From Streptomyces sp. NRRL S-1022 (GTDB lineage Bacteria > Actinomycetota > Actinomycetes > Streptomycetales > Streptomycetaceae): a stretch of DNA of 64,000 bases. Below, piece by piece: positions 18,924-62,193 of this stretch. Made by a program: the position numbers and the translations under genes. The DNA lies in contig NZ_JOIU01000003.1 in the NCBI RefSeq assembly GCF_000720135.1, positions 62,001-126,000 of the forward strand, in the 5' to 3' direction. Position 1 is the stretch's first letter, and each line of letters opens with the position of its first letter. The notes under the pieces are model-generated. The model saw only the letters and a program-made list of their open reading frames with translations. It was not told where the DNA came from and did no database searches.

Positions 18924-18970
18924 CCCTGTTCAACGAGGCCGGACGTCGCCCTGTTCAACGAGGCCGGACG
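18924..18970. repeat. 22-bp perfect tandem direct repeat
   Basis: CCCTGTTCAACGAGGCCGGA plus CG occurs at 18924-18945 and again at 18949-18970, a 25-bp period, between the divergent amidase and encapsulin genes. It may be a tandem operator or a recent slippage duplication. Confidence 0.7.
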
Positions 18971-19135
18971 CCGGGGGACGCGCCGTTCGTACGGTGTGCG
19001 AGCCGATCCGGACAACCGGAGGGGACCGGGGGCCGGAACGGGATCCCTCTTCGTGCCCAGTAATCCGATGATCCATTCCCGCTCTTTCGGGTTATGGCGC
19101 GCTCACGGTGCGTGCTGGAACGCTCGACGGTGCGA

Positions 19136-19161
19136 CCGGTGCCCGTGCGATCAGGCACCGG
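19136..19161 (+). promoter_or_regulatory. Hairpin in the encapsulin mRNA leader
   Basis: CCGGTGCC (19136-19143) and GGCACCGG (19154-19161) form a perfect eight-base-pair stem with a ten-base loop, 24 bases before the encapsulin ATG and just ahead of its GGGAGG ribosome site (19171-19176). It might stabilise the mRNA or tune translation; this is inference. Confidence 0.4.
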
Positions 19162-19185
19162 GCATACATGGGGAGGCATTTCTTT

Positions 19186-20592
19186 ATGTCGGTAGGCGAA
19201 GAGGTCCGCACGGATCAGGGCAAGCCGCAGCAGTCCCTCGGGACGGCGGCAGCGCGGAACCTGGCCACCACCACCAAGTCCGTTCCGCAGATGCAGGAGA
19301 TCAGCTCCCGCTGGCTGCTGCGCACGCTTCCCTGGGTGGACGTCCAGGGCGGTACCTACCGGGTGAACAGGCGGCTGACCTACGCCGTCGGCGACGGCCG
19401 GATCACCTTCGTGAAGACGGGTGACCAGGTGGAGGTCATCCCGGCCGAACTGGGCGAACTGCCGGTCCTGCGGTCGTACGGGGACGAGGAGGTGCTGACG
19501 GAGCTGGCCCGGCGCTGCCGGCAGCGCGACTTCGCGGCCGGTGAGGTGATCGCCGACTTCGGCAACCGGACGGACGAGGTCTACCTGCTCGCCCACGGCC
19601 GCGTGGAGAAGGTCGGCACGGGGCCCTACGGCGACGACGCGGTGCTCGGCGTCCTCGCGGACGGCGCCTACTTCGGCGACCAGGCGCTGCTCGACCCGGA
19701 GGCCATCTGGGAGTACACCGTCCGCGCGGACACCCCGACCACCGTGCTGATCCTCAGCCGCCAGGACTTCGAGCAGGTCGCCGAGCGCGCCGACTCGCTG
19801 CGCGCCCACCTCGAACAGCTGCGCTCGATCCCCGAGCAGCGGACCAACAAGTACGGCGAGAAGGAGGTCGAGCTGGCGGCCGGCCACTCCGGCGAGCCCG
19901 ACATCCCGCACACCTTCGTGGACTACGAGCCGCGGCCCCGCGAGTACGAACTCAGCATCGCCCAGACCGTGCTCCGCATCCACTCGCGCGTGGCCGACCT
20001 GTACAACCAGCCGATGAACCAGACCGAGCAGCAGCTGCGGCTCACGGTCGAGGCGCTGAAGGAGCGCCAGGAGCACGAGCTGGTCAACAACCCGGAGTTC
20101 GGCCTGCTCAGCAACTGCGAGTACGACCAGCGGATCCAGCCGCACGACGGCGTGCCCAGCCCGGACGACCTGGACGAGCTGCTCAGCCGCCGCCGGGGCA
20201 CCAAGCTGCTCCTGGCCCACCCGCGTGCGATCGCCGCGATCGGGCGGGAGCTGAACAAGCGGGGGCTGGTCCCGGAGACCATCGACATCTCCGGCAACCG
20301 CATCCCCACCTGGCGCGGGGTGCCGATCTACCCGTGCAACAAGATCCCGGTCAGCGAGGCCCGGACGACCTCCATCATCGCGATGCGTACCGGCGAGGCC
20401 GACCAGGGTGTCATCGGCCTCAGGCAGTCCGGCATCCCGGACGAGATCGAGCCGAGCCTTTCGGTCCGCTTCATGGGCATCAACGAACAGGCCATCATCA
20501 AGTACCTGGTGACGGCGTACTACTCGGCCGCCGTCCTGGTGCCCGACGCGCTCGGGGTGCTGGAGAACGTCGAGATCGGCCGGTGGAGGTGA
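19186..20592 (+). CDS. eshA: Family 2B encapsulin shell protein with cyclic-nucleotide-binding-like domain (EshA type)
   Basis: A 468-residue HK97-fold shell subunit that self-assembles into a protein nanocompartment. It has a short N-arm with [25 protein letters not shown], a Crp-like cyclic-nucleotide-binding fold at about residues 98-210 as in family 2B encapsulins, then the shell body ([31 protein letters not shown] to the C-terminus). Streptomyces EshA proteins, implicated in sporulation and ppGpp/antibiotic control, belong here. In the phosphate cassette [22 protein letters not shown], the residues equivalent to E72, R82 and S83 of E. coli CRP are D165, W175 and E176, so canonical cAMP binding is doubtful. 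GGGAGG lies nine bases before the ATG. The next gene encodes a prenyl synthase, the known cargo type. Confidence 0.93.
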
Positions 20593-20704
20593 CGTCTCCG
20601 CACGTACCGGCCGTGTCCCCGCCCGCCGGCACGGGTAGGCCCCTGGGGTATGCGTCCGGCGGGGCCGGCGGCGCCGGCCTCCGCGGACCCGGCGAGGGGG
20701 AGGC

Positions 20705-21847
20705 ATGGCCGAGTTCATGACGGAGACCGAAGAACGTTCCTCCGGTGTGCCGCGTCCCGGCGCGGCGGAGGAACCGCGGGAGAGGACCTCGGAGACCGGC
20801 GGCCCGCTCGACGCCCAGGAGGCGGTGGTACAGCTGGAGCGCACCCGGGCGCTGGTCGACCCGGAACTGCGCGCCGCCGTGGAGTCGCTGCCCGGTGCCA
20901 TGCGCCGGGCCGGGCTGTACCACTTCGGCTGGCAGCACGCCGACGGCAGTCCGGCGGCGGGCAACGCGGGCAAGGCGATCAGGCCGGCGCTGGTGCTGGC
21001 GGCCGCCGCCGCGCTCGGCGGGCCGGCGGCCCGGACGGCGGCCGTCCGGGCGGCAGCGGCGGTCGAGCTGGTCCACAACTTCACGCTGGTGCACGACGAC
21101 GTGATGGACCGGGACACCACCCGCCGGCACCGGTCGACGGTCTGGACCGTGTTCGGCGTACCCGACGCGATCCTCGCCGGTGACGCCCTCCAGGCGCTGG
21201 CCCTCCGGCTGCTGGCCGAGGACCCGCACCCGGCCTCCGCCCCGGCCGCGGCCCGGCTCGCGGCCTGTGTCGTGGAGCTGTGCGAGGGCCAGCACACCGA
21301 CACGGACCTGGAGCGGCGCGCACCGGAGGCGGTCACCCTGGAGGAGGTGCTCGTCATGGCGGAGGCGAAGACCGGCGCCCTGCTGGGCTGCGCCTGCGCG
21401 CTCGGCGCGCTGTACGCGGGCGCGGGCGAGGAGGAGGTGGCCGCGCTGGACGCCTTCGGCCGCCAGGCCGGCCTCGCCTTCCAGCTGATCGACGACGTCA
21501 TCGGCATATGGGGCGACCCGCGGCACACCGGCAAGCCGGCCGGCGCGGATCTCGCCGCCCGCAAGAAGTCCCTGCCGGTGGTGGCGGCGCTGACCTCCGG
21601 CACCCCGGCGGCGGCCGAGCTCGCCGCCCTCTACGGGAGTCCGTACCTACAGGGGGAGGCGGCGGCCGGGGAGATCGCGCGGACCGCGCTGGCGGTCGAG
21701 CGGGCCGGCGGCCGGGACTGGGCGCAGGCCGAGGCGGCCGACCGGATGGCCCGGGCCGTGCAGGAGCTGGCCCGCGCGGTCCCCGAACCCGAGGCGGCGG
21801 GCGGGCTGCTGGCGCTCGCCGAGTTCGTCACCCGACGCACCAGCTGA
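20705..21847 (+). CDS. Polyprenyl diphosphate synthase, encapsulin-associated cargo enzyme
   Basis: A 380-residue all-alpha trans-prenyltransferase that condenses isopentenyl diphosphate with allylic diphosphates. The first aspartate-rich motif is DDVMD (131-135) within NFTLVHDDVMDRDTTRR. The second, at 263-267, reads DDVIG and continues into IWGD, a variant in which the fifth position is Gly rather than Asp, seen in actinobacterial GGPP-synthase-like enzymes. The first 35 or so residues are rich in Glu, Pro, Ser and Thr and probably disordered; in family 2B systems such an N-terminal extension carries the cargo-loading signal. The gene lies 112 bases after the encapsulin gene with a strong GGGGGAGG ribosome site. 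Product chain length is unknown. Confidence 0.9.
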   Translation: MAEFMTETEERSSGVPRPGAAEEPRERTSETGGPLDAQEAVVQLERTRALVDPELRAAVESLPGAMRRAGLYHFGWQHADGSPAAGNAGKAIRPALVLAAAAALGGPAARTAAVRAAAAVELVHNFTLVHDDVMDRDTTRRHRSTVWTVFGVPDAILAGDALQALALRLLAEDPHPASAPAAARLAACVVELCEGQHTDTDLERRAPEAVTLEEVLVMAEAKTGALLGCACALGALYAGAGEEEVAALDAFGRQAGLAFQLIDDVIGIWGDPRHTGKPAGADLAARKKSLPVVAALTSGTPAAAELAALYGSPYLQGEAAAGEIARTALAVERAGGRDWAQAEAADRMARAVQELARAVPEPEAAGGLLALAEFVTRRTS

Positions 21848-21937
21848 GGGCCGCCTCTTCCGGCGGTCGCGCAGACCCCGGAGTCCCCGGCCCGTGCGGC
21901 TCCTGACCCCGCACGGACCCCGGGGCTCCGGTCGGAC

Positions 21938-21968
21938 GGCCCCGCGCATCTCCACGGTGCGCGGGGCC
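21938..21968 (+). terminator. Hairpin terminator after the encapsulin operon
   Basis: GGCCCCGCGCA (21938-21948) and TGCGCGGGGCC (21958-21968) form a perfect 11-bp stem with a nine-base loop, 91 bases after the prenyl synthase stop. Confidence 0.8.
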
Positions 21969-22094
21969 GCGCCCTGTCACGAACCAGTCCCGGCAACGGA
22001 TATCGGCAACGGACCCCGGAGGCAGATCCCGGAGACAGATCTTCGGAAAGAGATCTCGGACAGCTCTTGCACCACGACAGTTGGAGTACTACAA
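21969..22094. repeat. Short-repeat leader region before the reductase-like gene
   Basis: CGGCAACGGA is repeated at 21991-22000 and 22004-22013, and an AGATCT pair flanks TCGGAAAG near 22037. The meaning is unknown; it is probably promoter or leader DNA of the following gene. Confidence 0.35.
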
Positions 22095-58873: not shown

Positions 58874-60127
58874 ATGCGGAAGATACTCGTCGTCGGAGCC
58901 GGCCAGTCCGGCCTCCAGCTCGCCCTCGGCCTGCAGTCGCACGGCTACGAGGTCACCCTGATGTCGAACCGGACCGCGGACGAGATCCGCTCGGGCCGGG
59001 TCATGTCCACGCAGTGCATGTTCGGCACGGCGCTGCAGCACGAGCGCGACCTCCAGCTGAACTTCTGGGAGTCCCAGGCCCCGAGGATCGAGGGCCTCGG
59101 CGTCTCGGTCGCCGCCCCCGGCTCGCACGACCCGGGCCCCACCCAGCGGGCGATCGACTGGGTGGGCAGGCTCGACGGGTACGCGCAGTCGGTGGACCAG
59201 CGGGTGAAGATGGCCGGCTGGATGGAGACCTTCGCGCAGCGCGGCGGCCAGCTGGTCATCCACGGCGCGGCCGTCGGCGACCTGGACTACTTCTCCCGCG
59301 CCTACGACCTCGTCCTGGTCGCGGCCGGCAAGGGCGAGCTGGTGTCGATGTTCGCCCGGGACCCGGAGCGCTCCCCGTACGCCGAGCCGCAGCGCGCGCT
59401 GGCCGTGGCGTACGTCCACGGGCTCGGCCCGCGCCCGGAGCACCCCGAGTTCGACGCGGTCCGCTGCAACCTGGTCCCCGGCGTCGGCGAGCTGTTCGTG
59501 ATGCCGACCCTGACCACGTCCGGCCGCGCCGACATCCTGTTCTGGGAGGGCATACCCGGCGGCCCGCTCGACGTCTTCAAGGGCGTCAAGGACCCGGCGG
59601 AGCACCTCTCACTGACCCTGGAGCTCATGGAGAAGTTCACGCCCTGGGAGTACGCGCGGGCCACGAAGGCCGAGCTGACCGACGCCGGCGGCACGCTGGC
59701 CGGCCGGTACGCCCCGACCGTCCGCAACCCCGTCGGCCGGCTGCCCGGCGGCGGCCTGGTCCTGGGCGTGGCCGACGTGGTCGTGGCCAACGACCCGATC
59801 ACCGGGCAGGGCTCCAACTCGGCGGCCAAGTGCGCGGCCGCGTACCTCGCCTCGATCCTGGAGCGCGGGGACCAGCCGTTCGACGAGGACTGGATGCGGC
59901 AGACCTTCGACCGGTACTGGGCCACCGCGCGGCACGTCACCAAGTGGACCAACGCCATGCTGGCGCCGCCTCCGGAGCACGTGCTGAACCTCATCGGCGC
60001 GGCCGGCCAGCTCCAGCCGGTGGCGGATCGATTCGCCAACGCCTTCGACAACCCGGCCGACTTCGAGGACTTCTTCTACGACCCCGAGAAGACCTCCGCC
60101 TACCTGGGCTCGGTCGCCGGGGCCTGA
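58874..60127 (+). CDS. StyA/SMO-type FAD-dependent monooxygenase
   Basis: A 417-residue flavoprotein similar to styrene/indole monooxygenase oxygenase components. FAD-binding GAGQSGLQLALGLQSHGYEV at residues 8-27, LVLVAAGKGELVSMFARDP, and a second conserved flavin segment NDPITGQGSNSAAKCAAAYLASIL, which corresponds to the D-x6-G region. Such enzymes take reduced FAD from a separate reductase, absent here, and epoxidise alkenes or indole. GGAG precedes the ATG. The position right behind cvnD, at 41 bases, suggests that its level or activity is tied to the conservon; other conservons are followed by a cytochrome P450 instead. Confidence 0.9.
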   Translation: MRKILVVGAGQSGLQLALGLQSHGYEVTLMSNRTADEIRSGRVMSTQCMFGTALQHERDLQLNFWESQAPRIEGLGVSVAAPGSHDPGPTQRAIDWVGRLDGYAQSVDQRVKMAGWMETFAQRGGQLVIHGAAVGDLDYFSRAYDLVLVAAGKGELVSMFARDPERSPYAEPQRALAVAYVHGLGPRPEHPEFDAVRCNLVPGVGELFVMPTLTTSGRADILFWEGIPGGPLDVFKGVKDPAEHLSLTLELMEKFTPWEYARATKAELTDAGGTLAGRYAPTVRNPVGRLPGGGLVLGVADVVVANDPITGQGSNSAAKCAAAYLASILERGDQPFDEDWMRQTFDRYWATARHVTKWTNAMLAPPPEHVLNLIGAAGQLQPVADRFANAFDNPADFEDFFYDPEKTSAYLGSVAGA

Positions 60128-60216
60128 CGGGACCGTCCCCCTTTTGACACCTCCCACCGGCGGAGAGACGCTGGAGGGCAGGGGCCGGAAGGGGGACGAG
60201 CCACGTAGGAGTTCCC

Positions 60217-60723
60217 ATGAACGGTCGACGCGTACGCCTGGCGGTGCTGACGCCCCTCACGGTGTCGGCGTTGGCCGCGGGGACGGTGGCGCTCGCCGCC
60301 CCCCCGGCCGCTGCGGCGTCGTCGCCCACCTGCGCTGTCTCGCGGGCCGACGGCCCGGCGCACCTGGAGGTCGTCGGCGAGGACTTCCGGCCGGACAAGG
60401 CCGTGTTCGTCGATTCCGCCCACGGGGCCCACGCCACCGTGCGCACCGACGCCGACGGCGCCTTCGCCGCGACGGTGAGCCAGGCGGCCGGCACCGTCAC
60501 CGCCCGGCAGGCCGGCGGCCCCGAGGCCAGGTGCGGCACGGCCGAGCAGGGCGCGCGCATGAACGCCCGGGAGCAGTACGCGGCGGGCTACAAGGCCGGT
60601 TACGCGGCCATGAAGAACGACTGCGACGTCCGGGACCTCAAGCGCGTGCCGGTCAACGACAACTTCCGCAACGGCTTCAGGGACGGCGCGGCCGCGGCGG
60701 CGAAGAAGTTCTGCGCGGGCTAG
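60217..60723 (+). CDS. Secreted protein of unknown function with two C-terminal cysteines
   Basis: A 168-residue exported protein with signal peptide (RRVRLAVLTPLTVSALAAGTVALAAPPAAAASS). The mature part has a beta-rich middle (AHLEVVGEDFRPDKAVFVDSAHGAHATV) and a C-terminal helical segment rich in A, N, G, F: GYKAGYAAMKNDCDVRDLKRVPVNDNFRNGFRDGAAAAAKKFC. Cysteines C39, C107, C135 and C166 probably form disulfides. The family looks Streptomyces-specific; no function is known. The stop overlaps the converging NlpC/P60 gene by four bases. ATG with AGGAG upstream. Confidence 0.75.
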   Translation: MNGRRVRLAVLTPLTVSALAAGTVALAAPPAAAASSPTCAVSRADGPAHLEVVGEDFRPDKAVFVDSAHGAHATVRTDADGAFAATVSQAAGTVTARQAGGPEARCGTAEQGARMNAREQYAAGYKAGYAAMKNDCDVRDLKRVPVNDNFRNGFRDGAAAAAKKFCAG

Positions 60724-61872: not shown

Positions 61873-62193
61873 TCACCCGTTCGTGTCATCCGGCTTGCCG
61901 GACGGCCTGGTGTCCGGCTTGGACCAGGGCCAGCGGAGCCTTCCGCCGGACCTGTCGTCCGGGTCGTACGTGTACTTCCACCCCTGGATCAGCCCGAGCC
62001 GCCGGCTGTGCCCGCGCGGCACCCGGCGGTAGACCAGCACCGTGGGCGGGCCGCCCGCCGGGTCGGGGACGGGGATGCGGTACGTCTTCGGGGGGTGCCC
62101 GGTGGGGCCGAGCAGGACGGGCAGCACGCGCCCGTCCATGGGGCCGCCCTCGAAGGGGGTGTCGTGGCTCTTCACCAGCTCAGTCTCGGTCAT
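61873..62193 (-). CDS. Small basic protein of unknown function
   Basis: A 106-residue protein: HDTPFEGGPMDGRVLPVLLGPTGHPPKTYRIPVPDPAGGPPTVLVYRRVPRGHSRRLGLIQGWKYTYDPD then a Arg/Lys/Pro-rich tail. The YRRVPRG and WKYTYDPD-type ending is typical of a family of short Streptomyces proteins of unknown role. The start overlaps the TetR stop by 14 bases in another frame, so the two are co-transcribed and translation is coupled. No signal peptide. Confidence 0.65.
   Translation of the reverse strand: MTETELVKSHDTPFEGGPMDGRVLPVLLGPTGHPPKTYRIPVPDPAGGPPTVLVYRRVPRGHSRRLGLIQGWKYTYDPDDRSGGRLRWPWSKPDTRPSGKPDDTNG

Follow-up and report, generated by a model that had tools for sequence, protein, structure and literature searches.

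A common Streptomyces family 2B encapsulin operon with a predicted polyprenyl synthase cargo and a cyclic-nucleotide-binding fold that has probably lost its ligand

Why would a protein shell beside an isoprenoid enzyme carry the fold of a cyclic-nucleotide-binding domain (CNBD), and does that domain still bind a cyclic nucleotide? The question is raised by a locus of Streptomyces sp. NRRL S-1022 (assembly GCF_000720135.1, contig NZ_JOIU01000003.1), which we analyzed within a stretch of 64,000 nucleotides (positions 62,001 to 126,000 of the forward strand; hereafter, the window). Here, a gene for a family 2B encapsulin shell is followed on the same strand, after 112 bases, by a gene for a polyprenyl diphosphate synthase (Table 1). 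Judged by its sequence, the locus is a Streptomyces operon of the family 2B encapsulin kind, made up of two genes. We consider it likely that the two genes specify a compartment with the synthase as predicted cargo and that, jointly with this, the shell has lost cyclic-nucleotide binding. For the insertion domain of this clade, the absence of such binding is the most likely state because a Trp, almost invariant here, stands where the Arg would anchor the phosphate, and the remaining phosphate contacts drift, within a CNBD fold that is kept.

Table 1. Features of the encapsulin locus, in window coordinates
Feature	Position	Strand	Evidence
Family 2B encapsulin shell protein, 468 aa	19186..20592	+	NF041163 769.9 bits; PF19307 + PF00027; alignment with 9bhu/9bix/9bje
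CNBD-fold insertion domain, residues about 94-215 of shell	19465..19830	+	
Former phosphate-binding cassette, shell residues 163-181, W175 in Arg place	19672..19728	+	Family alignment
Polyprenyl (probably geranylgeranyl) diphosphate synthase, 380 aa, predicted cargo	20705..21847	+	NF041169, PF00348, Asp-rich motifs
Disordered synthase N-terminal tail, residues 1-35, putative loading tail, start MAEFMTET	20705..20809	+	pLDDT <50; alignment
GC-rich hairpin 3' of synthase, probable transcript end	21937..21969	+	Inverted repeat; fold z-score
Conserved upstream element, candidate promoter/operator	19069..19097	+	Upstream regions of 73 close relatives

The shell and its predicted cargo

The shell protein clears the cut-off of the NCBIfam family 2B model (NF041163; cut-off, 400 bits) and stays under that of the family 2A model (355.3 bits; cut-off, 380). 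Pfam places PF00027 (cNMP_binding) at residues 114-201 and PF19307 (SrpI-like shell) at 216-466, and the solved 2B shells 9bhu, 9bix, and 9bje align along nearly its full length. The CNBD is inserted in the HK97 fold, since in the alignment with 9bhu N-terminal shell residues precede the insert, and both domains are present in the predicted model. There, the predicted local distance difference test (pLDDT) score of the CNBD is mostly 82-92 and lower (65 and 74) in residues 141-160, and the cassette region forms a short helix (166-169), then a loop, then a strand (178-181). By analogy with its family, whose solved relatives are shells, the protein should assemble by itself into a closed HK97-fold compartment.

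The synthase scores 484.5 bits against NF041169 ("family 2 encapsulin nanocompartment cargo protein polyprenyl transferase"; cut-off, 450) and 196.2 bits against PF00348. It carries the Asp-rich motifs DDVMD (residues 131-135) and DDVIGIWGD (263-271), and its nearest solved chain is 3nf2. Chance is not an issue for either gene, and a purine-rich stretch resembling a ribosome site can be read directly 5' of both starts. The profiles and the coordinates of the open reading frames thus agree with the initial annotation, made from the DNA letters alone, which had described a 468-residue family 2B encapsulin, a 112-base gap, and a polyprenyl synthase. Regarding the product, the chain-length rules for these enzymes associate a Phe at a given place ahead of the first motif with geranylgeranyl diphosphate (GGPP); GGPP is suggested here because a Phe lies five residues before that motif. 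The IdsB GGPP-synthase model reaches 358.9 bits, under its cut-off of 475, and from the family the product is probably GGPP.

The synthase would be loaded into the compartment through its flexible N-terminus. Residues 1-35 have a pLDDT below 50, which bears out the disordered tail of about 35 residues noted earlier. According to PMC8346489, the N-termini of prenyltransferase (PT) cargo are disordered over 50-100 residues, with no targeting motif found; the window tail is shorter than this range. Largely common to the window synthase and the best 120 of its listed relatives is the start MAEFMTET (window 20705-20728), followed by a variable linker; it decays in remoter synthases. MAEFMTET is a possible terminal loading motif.

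An alternative is that the synthase is a mere neighbor and is not packaged, which would suit tails that range from long to very short. The very short ones, in some remoter synthases (at loci L109 and L177), do weaken the tail as a general loading signal. However, a synthase match lies just downstream of the shell in 79 of 80 relatives' loci, the tail is disordered in the model, and the NCBIfam family is named after encapsulin cargo, so that we regard an unpackaged neighbor as improbable. The single exception to this synteny is a contig of a metagenome-assembled genome (L038), and in four of the 79 loci (L022, L050, L063, and L064) the match is partial or split (<450 bits).

The locus is a common Streptomyces locus and an ordinary member of its kind. 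In protein searches, relatives of the shell made up at least 8000 of 8000 scored entries and those of the synthase at least 6919 of 7997; among the best 120 listed of each, most named entries bear the same two family names (2B shell and polyprenyl-transferase cargo). Family 2B shells exceed the cut-off in 143 of 147 genomes drawn from the same order, in 78/296 across the class, and in 14/296 across the phylum (own and same-genus genomes included). In the viral contigs searched, there were no relatives. Across the 80 relatives' loci, the flanking DNA covered (up to 8 kb) gave no match to a terpene cyclase or to a second shell. The initial annotation had singled out the pairing with a prenyltransferase in the absence of a terpene cyclase; this turns out to be the norm for the ortholog group and had already been counted, as PMC8346489 gives 900 PT operons, 165 of them with both a terpene cyclase (TC) and a PT. 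We therefore discarded the idea that a PT-only operon is unusual. The genome itself holds six polyprenyl-synthase matches and four terpene-synthase-domain matches. One such terpene synthase domain lies on contig C3 at 59820-60404, about 1.6 kb outside the window start and about 21 kb upstream of the shell gene, with no sign of membership in the operon.

A tryptophan in the place of the arginine

Direct reading of the cassette (residues 163-181) confirmed the earlier placement of D165, W175, and E176. We take their counterparts in E. coli CRP to be E72, R82, and S83. In the HMMER alignment to a PKG domain, a one-residue gap stands opposite W175 and the PKG Arg falls opposite I174; in neither alignment register is there an Arg at the cassette place. 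Where a working cassette has Glu and Arg, the window shell has Asp165 and Trp175, which supports a cassette unfit for cAMP, as far as sequence can tell. The loss of cAMP contacts claimed before does not hold for D165 as a clean loss, which we rejected: among 112 PT-type shells (109 labeled and 3 added by score), 66 carry D at position 165 and 46 carry E.

To place these residues in context, we aligned 172 distinct shells from fetched loci with the window shell, then 120 distant proteins, then further loci. The locus set, window included, comprises 221 rows (212 distinct), and shells were labeled as PT-, TC-, or cysteine-desulfurase (CD)-linked from matches within 4 kb, many loci being short. 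Position 175 is W in 207/221 locus rows (198/212 distinct), in 1/120 distant 2B-like rows, and at the same column in all three solved 2B shells (9bhu, 9bix, and 9bje). By neighbors, and counting distinct shells, W occurs in 115/115 PT-linked, 3/3 PT with two shells, 34/37 TC-linked, 36/38 two-shell, 5/8 TC with two shells, 0/5 CD-linked, and 5/6 unlabeled. W175, treated initially as a trait of the window shell subject to a check of its conservation, is consequently no peculiarity of this protein. The five shells beside a cysteine desulfurase match that lack the Trp belong to L202, L203, L204, L213, and L217. Separately, three two-shell TC loci (L210, L215, and L219) have one shell with a shrunken cassette and no Trp, and its partner keeps the Trp in all three, hinting at different roles for the two shells' domains.

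Binding of cAMP or cGMP in a noncanonical way appears highly improbable, given that no Arg is found in either register and that the Trp is nearly fixed. It also runs against PMC12407261, in which the 2B insertion domain is said, by citation of another paper, not to bind cyclic nucleotides. The same paper describes binding-site residues that diverge in 2B shells, locates the insertion domain over the two-fold pore, and proposes an unidentified ligand.

What, then, would the domain do? We find it somewhat probable that it serves a structural purpose above the two-fold pore and that W175 occupies what was once the phosphate pocket. Among 112 CNBD positions (214 sequences, CD-linked shells and L164 left out), position 175 ranks 22nd in conservation, 165 ranks 70th, and 176 ranks 81st, which is what a structural Trp would predict and a retained phosphate site would not. 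Conservation of the W rather than of the former phosphate contacts leans toward this role. The cassette is about as variable as the remaining domain (entropy, 0.71 vs 0.78 in the PT group and 1.62 vs 1.50 in all groups), and the CNBD shows much greater variation than the HK97 parts (0.78 vs 0.27 and 0.32, PT group).

The strongest rival holds that the domain is still a sensor: its Trp-for-Arg pocket would take up a different small molecule, be it a nucleoside, an intermediate of isoprenoid synthesis, or some further metabolite, and thereby alter the opening of the two-fold pore. We deem this possible, if rather doubtful. The ligand proposed in PMC12407261 would agree with it, and W175, A136, H137, T178, and T183 are conserved, A136-H137-G138 and T183 arguing mildly in its favor. 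Foldseek also lists a "cAMP-independent protein kinase A" regulatory subunit of Trypanosoma brucei (6flo and 6h4g), a precedent by title only, with two domains and a root mean square deviation above 20. On the contrary, a cassette no more conserved than the rest of a domain that itself varies far more than the HK97 parts does not favor a sensor, and drifting phosphate contacts speak slightly against a different ligand. Several observations nevertheless weigh against a structural plug: stacking on a different ligand would be just as plausible for the conserved Trp; strong conservation extends to A136, H137, G138, and T183, for which a pure plug offers no reason; His replaces Trp in 3/37 TC-linked shells; and the cassette is lost in some partner shells of two-shell loci. 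Both readings of the initial annotation, another ligand or a structural gate, stand, with the conserved Trp leaning toward the structural role.

Distant shells with an intact cassette

The distant set consists of the best 120 matches listed for one query, the divergent actinobacterial shell L164, and is therefore a sample biased by that query. Within it, the full canonical cassette FGE..L......R.A occurs in 32/120 2B-like shells, compared to 0/221 locus rows under the strict pattern. At middle strictness the counts are 32/120 and 1/221, the single row being L150, with an Arg just before the Trp. Five locus shells that matched a loose pattern were rejected as a Glu/Arg type, as W175 is present in every one of them and chance explains the matches. 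When ten shells were compared with the NCBIfam models (six distant, five of these with the canonical cassette, and four from loci), all passed NF041163, and all also passed the family 2A cut-off, via the shell part and at lower scores.

A tree of the shell domain alone was built from 194 rows and rooted on one family 2A protein. It covers the window, the 120 distant shells, the outgroup, a random 14 of the 109 PT-labeled shells, the TC and two-shell rows, and one of six unlabeled shells, from the first sampling round, loci fetched later being left out. On this tree, the W state takes two changes (a gain and a loss would do), and all three cassette states need eight changes, compared to a shuffled mean of 81.9. 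Parsimony assigns the canonical state to a large part of the backbone beneath the W branch, leaves the nodes immediately under that branch "other" or undecided, and gives "other" for the root; several backbone branches are weakly supported, and hence the ancestral state is tentative. Most simply, the W would be one derived change in an actinobacterial clade.

Since 32/120 distant shells keep Glu/Arg, the W is most simply one gain, and 0/5 CD-linked shells have it, the lack of binding in print should not be carried over to 2B shells in general. We tentatively suggest, as an idea with slightly less than an even claim to being right, that there are two kinds of 2B shell. The Glu/Arg lineages would be truly gated by cyclic nucleotides; the actinobacterial terpenoid clade would have lost sensing once, via the Trp, which since then has been retained as a plug or a new site for a ligand. 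In that case, the published negative tests would have been made on the wrong branch to decide what the family does. This comparison makes the function of the 2B CNBD testable, with W-type shells as a natural negative control.

Flanking DNA and comparison with known systems

Upstream of the shell gene, a 29-nt element (consensus TGATCCATTCCCGCTCTTTCGGGTAATGG; TTATGG at its end in the window) starts about 117 bases before the shell start. It was found in 74/74 upstream regions (window and 73 close relatives) at ≤9 mismatches, starting at -110 to -125 from the ATG, and in 73/74 at ≤6 mismatches, with many invariant columns; at ≤3 mismatches it is single copy in the genome. A promoter could include the GGGTAA of this element, which reads GGGTTA in the window. 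Between the shell gene and a divergent amidase gene, at 18924-18973, there is a 25-nt direct repeat (CCCTGTTCAACGAGGCCGGACG type); a second conserved upstream block was rejected, as the 17-nt core of this repeat occurs in the window alone (0/73 other regions at ≤3 mismatches). The divergent gene, an N-acetylmuramoyl-alanine amidase (PF01510; 18276-18869), is found within 1.2 kb of the shell start in 49/73 loci. Downstream, the hairpin has a 12-bp perfect stem (fold z-score, -4.9 over 21845-21985). As to the terminator proposed earlier, the strong hairpin stands and the T run does not, a T-requiring terminator scan giving no site there.

Our literature search on encapsulins, which scarcely covered subscription literature, found, among the papers listed and the passages covered, no paper sorting 2B shells by cassette and none combining "encapsulin" with "phosphate-binding cassette"; for SCO5250 it returned unrelated papers only. 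The window locus agrees without any difference found with the PT type of family 2B, that is, a shell with a CNBD insert, an adjoining polyprenyl synthase, a single shell gene, and no terpene cyclase. SCO5249 of S. coelicolor, presumably the ortholog of the window shell, is probably of this type. In the literature, SCO5249 is eshB, with a promoter up-regulated during development (PMC3878966), a possible target of AtrA (PMC13170358), and an entry in a transcriptome table (PMC3610822).

The 2-methylisoborneol type (EshA-like) has the same shell architecture and, unlike the window locus, a terpene cyclase and a geranyl diphosphate (GPP) methyltransferase as neighbors. A locus of this type is present in the same genome on another contig (C4), where a second 2B shell, 58% identical, lies beside both enzymes. 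We take the S. griseus shell 9bhu, which has Trp at the Arg place, to belong here as well. The adjacency of eshA to 2-methylisoborneol genes is given in PMC6428758 and PMC5839063. The two-component 2B system of S. lydicus (9bix and 9bje) shares the shell fold and the Trp with the window shell but comprises two shell proteins in a putative xylulose-kinase system, according to PMC12407261. Finally, the distant shells P0252, P0260, and P0318 pass NF041163 like the window shell; unlike it, they also pass the family 2A cut-off and bear the canonical FGE..L......R.A cassette, intact, so that they should bind cyclic nucleotides if any encapsulin does.
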